From positions 1 through 21,176 of the IMG/VR virus record IMGVR_UViG_3300029893_000215: a DNA stretch of 21,176 bases, one strand, 5' to 3'. Origin of the DNA: a virus. The notes beneath the pieces are model-generated. The model had not been told where the DNA came from. It saw only the letters and a list, made by a program, of their open reading frames with translations, and made no database searches. This document shows positions 810 to 2,163 of this stretch, piece by piece. Numbering within the stretch: position 1 is the first letter of the stretch; the number at the start of each line of letters is the position of its first letter. Made by a program: the position numbers and the translations under genes.

Positions 810-853
810 GCGCGCGTTTTGGCACCGTTTTGCGCGCGTTTTGGCACTACTCC
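810..853. repeat. Tandem 22-bp repeats at the prophage right end (putative transposase-binding sites)
   Basis: GCGCGCGTTTTGGCAC occurs at 810-825 and again at 832-847, a period of exactly 22 bp. The second half-unit after copy two diverges. MuA end-binding sites are about 22 bp and lie side by side just inside the right end, so these fit R1/R2-like sites behind the TG at 801. The last bases of copy two fall inside the stop codon of the first phage gene. The role is inferred from spacing and place, not from sequence identity to Mu. Confidence 0.6.
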
Positions 854-1206
854 TCGGAATCTTTAACCGCAGACCAAGCATGCTGATCTAGGCGTATCAG
901 GGCCAGGAATGGGTTGATTTGCTGAAGGGTAGCCAGAAGGCCAAAAAAGTCGTCTGCCACGAACGTAGCGATTCCGGAGTTTTCACCCATCAGGTCGACA
1001 TAGTAAGTCGGCACAACACTATCTGATCTACGGCGATAGACAGCGACCGACGCCCCCATCACATCTGCATCGGAACTGGAAAATTCTCGCTGATAGCCGG
1101 CTTCCCAAATAGCCTCGGCAACGCTGCTGTAATTTGAATTGGCGGTAGGATCGACGGCAGGCACAAAACATCCGCCATTGATGTCCCATTTATAGCAATC
1201 CATCAT
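847..1206 (-). CDS. Hypothetical protein at the prophage end, low-GC cargo gene
   Basis: I do not recognise this 119-residue protein. It starts MMDCYKWDINGG, is acidic toward the C-terminus (ends AVKDSEE), and shows no signal peptide, membrane segment or known catalytic motif. A Shine-Dalgarno GGGAGG precedes the double ATG; the second ATG at 1203 is an alternative start. Its DNA is clearly less GC-rich than the surrounding late genes, suggesting separate acquisition. It is the last gene before the phage end, and its stop codon overlaps the terminal repeat. In Mu this slot lies beyond mom and holds no gene of this kind, so it is probably a moron, perhaps for superinfection exclusion or anti-defence, but no motif supports a specific function. 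Confidence 0.75.
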   Translation of the reverse strand: MMDCYKWDINGGCFVPAVDPTANSNYSSVAEAIWEAGYQREFSSSDADVMGASVAVYRRRSDSVVPTYYVDLMGENSGIATFVADDFFGLLATLQQINPFLALIRLDQHAWSAVKDSEE

Positions 1207-1253: not shown

Positions 1254-2000
1254 TTATCCGCCCCGAAGCCGCTCCGCCGAGACCCCGAAGTAATGCCTGC
1301 TAGCCTCGATCCCGACGAACCGCTTTCCCTGGGCTAGGGCCGCCACGCCAGTCGTCGCCGACCCCATGAACGGATCGAGGATTCTGGGGCCGCAGGCGGC
1401 CACAATATCCTCCATCAGGGGTAACGGTTTGCCTACCTGGTGCAGCTTGCCGCCGGCCTGCGGATTGACCCGAAATACCCCCGGCGAGTAACGCTCACCT
1501 TTAAGCGCACCTTTGCTGCCCCAGACGATGTATTCGGCCTGGCTGCGAAAGCCGCCCTTGTAGGGGCGGGCGCCGCCGGTCTTGTCCCATACCGCGATGC
1601 CGCGCCACGTTACTCCGGCGGCCTGCATGGCGTCGGTGGTAACGGGTAGTTGGCGCCAGTCGCTGAAGACGACCATCAGGCCGCCATCGGCCAGCTTTTC
1701 GAGGCACAGGCCCATCCAGAGCGCCGACCAATGCAGGTAGCTGCGCTGGTCTTTTGTGTCGCCAAGGAAGTCGGGGTATTTCGCCGCGCCGCTGTTGAGG
1801 TATTTGTCGCCGGTCGAGCGGGCGCGGTCGCCCTTGGATTGTCCGCCCGAGCTGTAGGGCGGGTCCGTCACCACGGCATCGAAGGGGCCGGCGATGCCCG
1901 GCAGGATCGCCAGACAGTCGCCTCGGTAGAGCTCGGCCCCTTCGAGCGTTACATGGTCCGGGTTGTTAAAGATCGGGGTGCTACTGCTTCTCTTGGCCAT
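1254..2000 (-). CDS. Phage DNA methyltransferase, N6-adenine/N4-cytosine type (beta order), in the mom position
   Basis: This 248-residue SAM-dependent enzyme should methylate an exocyclic amino group of adenine or cytosine, probably protecting phage DNA from restriction. The catalytic motif DPPY is at residues 46-49. The SAM-binding motif DPFMGSATTG is at 209-218, followed by FVGIEASRHYF. This IV-then-I order places it in the beta group of the N6_N4_Mtase family (PF01555). DPPY favours adenine, but N4-cytosine is not excluded. No restriction endonuclease lies beside it, so it is an orphan enzyme. The Shine-Dalgarno AAGGAA lies inside the upstream com-like gene, which overlaps it by 20 bases. 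The start codon sits in a hairpin, suggesting translational control by Com. Confidence 0.93.
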   Translation of the reverse strand: MAKRSSSTPIFNNPDHVTLEGAELYRGDCLAILPGIAGPFDAVVTDPPYSSGGQSKGDRARSTGDKYLNSGAAKYPDFLGDTKDQRSYLHWSALWMGLCLEKLADGGLMVVFSDWRQLPVTTDAMQAAGVTWRGIAVWDKTGGARPYKGGFRSQAEYIVWGSKGALKGERYSPGVFRVNPQAGGKLHQVGKPLPLMEDIVAACGPRILDPFMGSATTGVAALAQGKRFVGIEASRHYFGVSAERLRGG

Positions 2001-2163
2001 CGGTCGTTTCCTTTCGGCACGACGCTCGATGGCGCTCTTGGGTGAAGGGGCTCGCGGCCCTCTGGAAATTCAACGTCCCGCACTTGGGACATTTGATAGC
2101 GATGCGGCTGTATTCAGCCTCCGCCAGTTTTCTGTTGCAGTTACCACATCTGATCGTTTCCAC
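1981..2163 (-). CDS. com: Com-like zinc-finger translational activator
   Basis: This is a 60-residue protein of the Mu Com family (PF10122), a small RNA-binding zinc finger that activates translation of the downstream DNA-modification gene. Four cysteines in two CxxC knuckles are at residues 6, 9, 25 and 28 (IRCGNCNRKL and IKCPKCGTLN), with a basic tail. The GTG at 2163 was chosen because the protein then begins VETIRC, matching Mu Com (MKSIRC) in position and giving nearly the same length (62 residues in Mu). No strong Shine-Dalgarno precedes it, and an upstream start such as the TTG at 2349 is possible but would add an unconserved extension into the previous gene. Its 3' end overlaps the methyltransferase gene by 20 bases, as com overlaps mom in Mu. 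Confidence 0.85.
   Translation of the reverse strand: METIRCGNCNRKLAEAEYSRIAIKCPKCGTLNFQRAASPFTQERHRASCRKETTDGQEKQ
1996..2033 (-). promoter_or_regulatory. mRNA hairpin masking the methyltransferase start codon (Com-type translational switch)
   Basis: In the minus-strand mRNA, GCCATCG (2033-2027) pairs with CGATGGC (2002-1996), and GTCGT (2023-2019) pairs with ACGAC (2007-2003). This gives 12 base pairs with one 3-base bulge. The ATG at 2000-1998 is within the outer stem. The 11-base loop at 2018-2008 contains the Shine-Dalgarno AAAGGAA. In Mu, the mom start is held in an inhibitory stem-loop that Com opens by binding the mRNA; this arrangement is analogous. The pairing is seen directly; Com control is inferred from the gene order. 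Confidence 0.7.

Follow-up and report, generated by a model that had tools for sequence, protein, structure and literature searches.

Is the start codon of a phage DNA methyltransferase, buried in a predicted hairpin at its junction with an upstream com gene, controlled by Com as mom is in phage Mu, and if so, how would Com release it? The junction lies in a viral contig (IMGVR_UViG_3300029893_000215), the whole analyzed stretch of which (21,176 bases; hereafter, the window) looks like one end of a Mu-like prophage adjoining host DNA with a tRNA-Val. The minus-strand com gene (1981-2163; putative GTG start, stop TAG at 1983-1981) encodes a 60-aa zinc-ribbon translational regulator that a profile search assigned to PF10122 (E = 1.4e-13) and to phrog_6417 "translational regulator" (E = 1.4e-15). 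Taking a four-cysteine zinc ribbon scoring over the Pfam cutoff as the mark of the Com family, the product belongs to it, at 50.5 bits against a cutoff of 22.9. The methyltransferase (1254-2000, minus strand) is a 248-aa N6_N4_Mtase protein with DPPY and DPFMGSATTG motifs, matching PF01555 (E = 3.7e-25) and phrog_67 (E = 5.7e-55), with CcrM and DpnA among its PDB relatives. The two ORFs overlap by 20 nt, from the ATG at 2000 to the end of the com stop at 1981, and so com overlaps the start of its target as in a Mu-type switch. Between the methyltransferase and the apparent host boundary lies one last gene, a 119-aa ORF (847-1206, minus strand) that had no match in Pfam or PHROG. A direct repeat (approximately GCGCGCGTTTTGGCAC, 806-846), which may hold binding sites for the transposase at the right end of the prophage, separates this gene from the host tRNA. 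Positions 1-717 appear to be host DNA, carrying tRNA-Val(CAC) and, by reading, the end of a putative aminotransferase-like gene, so the record has the look of a fragment of an integrated prophage.

A preliminary description of the window had claimed a 12-bp hairpin at 1996-2033 with the methyltransferase ATG in its stem and the Shine-Dalgarno in its loop, and the predicted fold reproduced those coordinates exactly. On the minus strand, the 5' arm of this hairpin (hereafter, the lock; 2033-2019) consists of GCCATCG (2033-2027), a 3-nt bulge, AGC (2026-2024), and GTCGT (2023-2019); it is followed by the apical loop GCCGAAAGGAA (2018-2008) and a 3' arm (2007-1996) of ACGAC (2007-2003) and CGATGGC (2002-1996) that contains the ATG (2000-1998), giving a stem of 7+5 bp. 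The Shine-Dalgarno AAGGA (2013-2009), assigned from sequence and fold, lies in the apical loop, where a 2-bp CC/GG mini-helix touches it. The predicted fold therefore has the start codon in a stem and the Shine-Dalgarno in a loop, as a Mu-type switch does. Folding positions 1960-2060 of the minus strand, as the preliminary description had proposed, gave -28.4 kcal/mol (z = -2.2 versus dinucleotide shuffles), and in the predicted ensemble the start codon paired upstream with a probability of 0.9995. The stem was also said to pair well despite encoding parts of two proteins, and this held when Com amino acids were fixed and the 5'-arm codons randomized by phage codon usage: 0.5% of synonymous com recodings locked the start equally. 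Opening the start requires 11.05 kcal/mol in the window versus 3.23 +/- 2.02 in the recodings, none of 200 being as high, while the hairpin energy of -19.9 kcal/mol was attained by 4% of them. Just 4.2% of 191 control gene starts from related loci had an equally closed ribosome-binding site. As modeled, the start-codon hairpin is more than chance.

What the preliminary description overlooked, in an otherwise sound account of the start hairpin, was a tandem pair of candidate Com boxes, the strongly covarying elements of the junction. SELEX with Haemophilus sputorum Com selected GAGNNCC(N)2-3GAGNNCC, which folds as a hairpin whose stem varies but whose C-G closing pair does not (PMC6483171). Predicted box 1 (2048-2060, minus strand; GGGC-CGCGA-GCCC) has the CC(N)2-3GAG loop, and GAGGGCCGCGAGCCCC (2062-2047) fits the entire bipartite motif with a 2-nt spacer, being its sole match in the window (0.14 expected). 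Predicted box 2 (2022-2035, minus strand; GCGC-CATCGA-GCGT) lies within GAGCGCCATCGAGCGTC (2037-2021), which has a 3-nt spacer and one C-to-T departure in the flank, and is the sole window match (0.18 expected) when the 3-nt-spacer form is searched with YC allowed for the final CC. Like the SELEX hairpin, both boxes have the C-G closing pair. The com-methyltransferase RNA carries both matches; the rest of the window has none. By sequence and covariation, therefore, two Com-binding hairpins are predicted just 5' of the lock, as in Mu, and the upstream protein is a Com family member, which supports the earlier comparison with the mom inhibitory stem-loop. By analogy with the H. sputorum protein, the Com of this phage would be expected to bind these boxes.

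Box 2 overlaps the lock in such a way that it supplies the lock's 5' arm; the same nucleotides form both, and the two folds are mutually exclusive. In the locked ensemble of the window the probability of box 2 was 0.0, and switching folds costs 8-9 kcal/mol (-28.1 locked versus -19.8 kcal/mol with box 2 forced), a price that must be paid by Com binding. We consider it probable that the junction is a Com-operated, Mu-type translational switch retargeted to a DNA methyltransferase, a restriction-evasion gene. With the ATG held in the 12-bp hairpin, little enzyme would be made at first; as Com accumulates, it would bind the two hairpin boxes through their CC(N)2-3GAG loops, and its occupation of box 2 would favor refolding and free the ATG, since box 2 is the lock's 5' arm. 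Com-RNA contact and translational activation are here extrapolated from Mu and SELEX. The methyltransferase would thus be turned on late in the phage cycle, at a time when protection against restriction would benefit packaged DNA.

To place the window among its relatives, viral and bacterial contigs and annotated phages were scanned, yielding 186 nonredundant com junctions, of which 94 were retained at an 85% identity cutoff and with a usable gene downstream. Phrog_67-type N6/N4 methyltransferases (101) and D12 adenine methyltransferases (70, the start codons of some being uncertain) predominated downstream of com, with smaller numbers of Mom (5, Mu among them) and C5-cytosine methylases (3), plus one other N6/N4-type protein, L234. 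L244 and L265 were confirmed to encode Mom (PF25680), and L127, L221, and L259 belong to the same cluster. In a further dozen loci (L089:3071-4344, L158, L164, L187, L188, L194, L196, L207, L226, L238, L250, and L251), com is followed by a 49- to 65-aa ORF and then by phrog_11143, an uncharacterized ABC-ATPase/GNAT fusion of ~375 aa. Five or more kinds of downstream gene, drawn from unrelated families, accompany com in Mu-like and P2-like phages. In nearly all loci the two genes overlap, the target starting upstream of the com stop. Mom itself has been described as an acyltransferase-fold enzyme and, because of this likeness, com, the small ORF, and phrog_11143 may constitute an undescribed DNA-modification module. 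Com boxes also precede the C5-cytosine DNA methylases (PF00145) of L228, L098, and L242, a pairing of which we saw no annotation.

The boxes are concentrated at these junctions. CC(N)2-3GAG was flanked by three of three outer pairs in 144 of 202 occurrences within the 94 junctions versus 58 of 593 in other parts of those loci. Because position and loop motif were the criteria for picking box sequences, their closing C-G pair is fixed by that choice, and the test applies to the three outer pairs alone. Of the box 1 cells (53 distinct sequences), 99.1% were paired and 24 were compensatory (double-change); for box 2 (66 sequences), 97.3% were paired and 9 were compensatory, although part of this conservation could be at the protein level, because box sequences also encode the Com tail. 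None of 500 shuffles equaled either box on pairing, compensatory cells, or covariation score, and slid controls for both boxes had far lower pairing and covariation scores. On two enzyme trees, box 1 switched its outer pair type at least 7 and at least 11 times. The box 2 stem covaries independently (GCGC/GCGT, AGGC/GCCT, and ATGC/GCAT) at a mostly fixed 22-nt spacing from box 1, the distance in the window being 25 nt. A covariance model built from phrog_67-type loci only gave 89 matches (E <= 0.1) in 100 loci, among them the window and four others of the same partner family, part of the score being protein-driven sequence conservation, because Com itself is homologous. Matches numbered at most one per locus, stood at the com junction, and included D12, Mom, C5, and ATPase-GNAT loci. 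Across five host genomes (2.4-9 Mb), the model matched once in four and twice in the fifth; the second match there (L271) was weak, had no com on the examined strand, and was taken as chance. At the site in the window no Rfam 15 family scored above its gathering threshold; the host tRNA alone matched.

Opening a com-linked start took more energy than opening a control start (median 9.9 versus 6.6 kcal/mol, p = 1e-7), and of the com-linked starts ~37 of 94 exceeded at least 95% of their synonymous recodings, where ~5 were expected. The search for compensatory changes in the stem suggested by the preliminary description succeeded weakly: the main covarying lock pair, a C-G to G-C exchange beside the ATG, is a single evolutionary event on the phrog_67 methyltransferase tree. 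The 10/33 C-G versus G-C cells of the lock were accordingly rejected as strong covariation. Other lineages, and junctions with other partner genes, again show locking, each using its own sequences; in L221 (Mom), for instance, the TTG start is predicted to pair with CAA, and Burkholderia-type members are predicted to lock the Shine-Dalgarno, not the ATG. The predicted lock was weak in some junctions (L175, L245, L254, and L090). Among methyltransferase relatives listed without com, five had open starts and three GC-rich ones did not separate; L042, also listed as lacking com, turned out to carry boxes. Judged on predicted folds, the lock is conserved as a function, its main base-pair switch being one evolutionary event.

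RNAalifold, run on the start-hairpin alignment A2, picked box 2 instead of the lock, which suggested that the two exclude each other. In other lineages it is box 1, not box 2, that supplies the sequestering strand: box 1 GAGAGCCTC of Burkholderia-type loci is predicted to pair with GAAGGCTCTC at the Shine-Dalgarno, and in L224/L229 the box sequence GCCATCG is predicted to pair with CGATGGC at the start. At least one box was disrupted in 65 of 84 predicted folds, and nucleotides pairing with the ribosome-binding site fell in boxes more often than expected (54% versus 36%, p = 9e-8). Box disruption and box-enriched start pairing together favor activation by capture, whereby Com would bind and stabilize the box fold and so free the start. 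Whether Com plus the tandem boxes amount to a two-state RNA switch that phages can place ahead of varied DNA-modification genes, in which Com captures one of two exclusive folds instead of melting a stem, and which marks unknown modification enzymes such as the ATPase-GNAT phrog_11143, we regard as an evenly balanced proposition.

The strongest competitor to capture of box 2 is the Mu mechanism proper, whereby Com would bind box 1 only and destabilize the adjoining lock, with box 2 not refolded and contributing little or no contact. In Mu just one clear box is present, next to the translation inhibition structure (TIS), and the published model puts Com action proximal to the TIS (PMC6483171), but an idle box 2 is hard to square with a stem that covaries on its own at a mostly fixed distance from box 1; we hold this alternative to be possible and tentative. 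It is improbable that plain translational coupling suffices, with ribosomes ending com opening the hairpin and Com unneeded as an RNA binder. The near-universal overlap of com with the target start, the com stop lying downstream, would suit such coupling, yet it leaves unexplained the SELEX-matching, covarying boxes upstream of the start and their presence with all partners. Very unlikely, in our view, is that conserved Com-tail codons (RAxSP, ERHRAS) yield box-like or hairpin-like sequence by accident: Com tail residues are fairly conserved and the window's hairpin energy is within reach of synonymous recoding, as the 4% above attest, but the box stems stay paired while both the sequence and the encoded residues change (ER to AG in L123), and no shuffle matched their compensatory cells. 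Hardly credible at all is an RNA thermometer or other Com-independent sensor, since, although a start-codon hairpin alone could melt by heat or a changed host state, in the loci examined the element lies beside com, and it is missing from most methyltransferase relatives found without com.

Com capture of a box that doubles as a lock strand, the reading we prefer, would, if the switch works as proposed, explain how phages swap modification enzymes yet keep them off until needed. Mu com-mom has been treated as a special case until now; here the regulator and a covarying RNA element accompany at least five downstream gene kinds. Searches for new restriction-evasion enzymes could use the element as an RNA signature that Rfam lacks, and the boxes bear on the disputed question of whether Com recognizes a hairpin or a duplex. 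Tandem Com sites and Com-linked RNA structures in methyltransferase phages were undescribed in the open full-text literature searched. Neither that literature nor Rfam yielded a counterpart to the covarying box pair, to its overlap with the lock, or to its occurrence with several kinds of modification gene.

The exchange of the com target is not new: it occurs often, and the annotations of public phages, KS5 and B3 among them, already record it. Burkholderia KS5, Pseudomonas B3, and Stenotrophomonas Smp131 have the same gene pair annotated, translational regulator plus methyltransferase, and carry the same RNA element according to the covariance model; unlike the present analysis, their records annotate genes only, with no RNA structure described. 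In FluMu-type prophages an adenine methyltransferase gene downstream of com replaces mom, a likeness at the gene level. Against Mu itself, the preliminary description, in which the logic is the same and the downstream gene unrelated, was right that the target is not Mom and understated the rest, since more than logic is shared: this is the same Com system with its target gene swapped. The window resembles Mu com/mom in its homologous zinc-ribbon Com, the overlap of com with the target start, the CC(N)2-3GAG hairpin of the Com site, and the TIS-like placement of the start codon in a stem and the Shine-Dalgarno in a loop. Under a narrow definition of the com-mom operon, requiring Mom (PF25680) as the target, the window falls outside it, its target being the PF01555 N6/N4 methyltransferase. 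Unlike Mu, which has one box that is not part of the TIS stem, the window has two in tandem, the second within the start lock.
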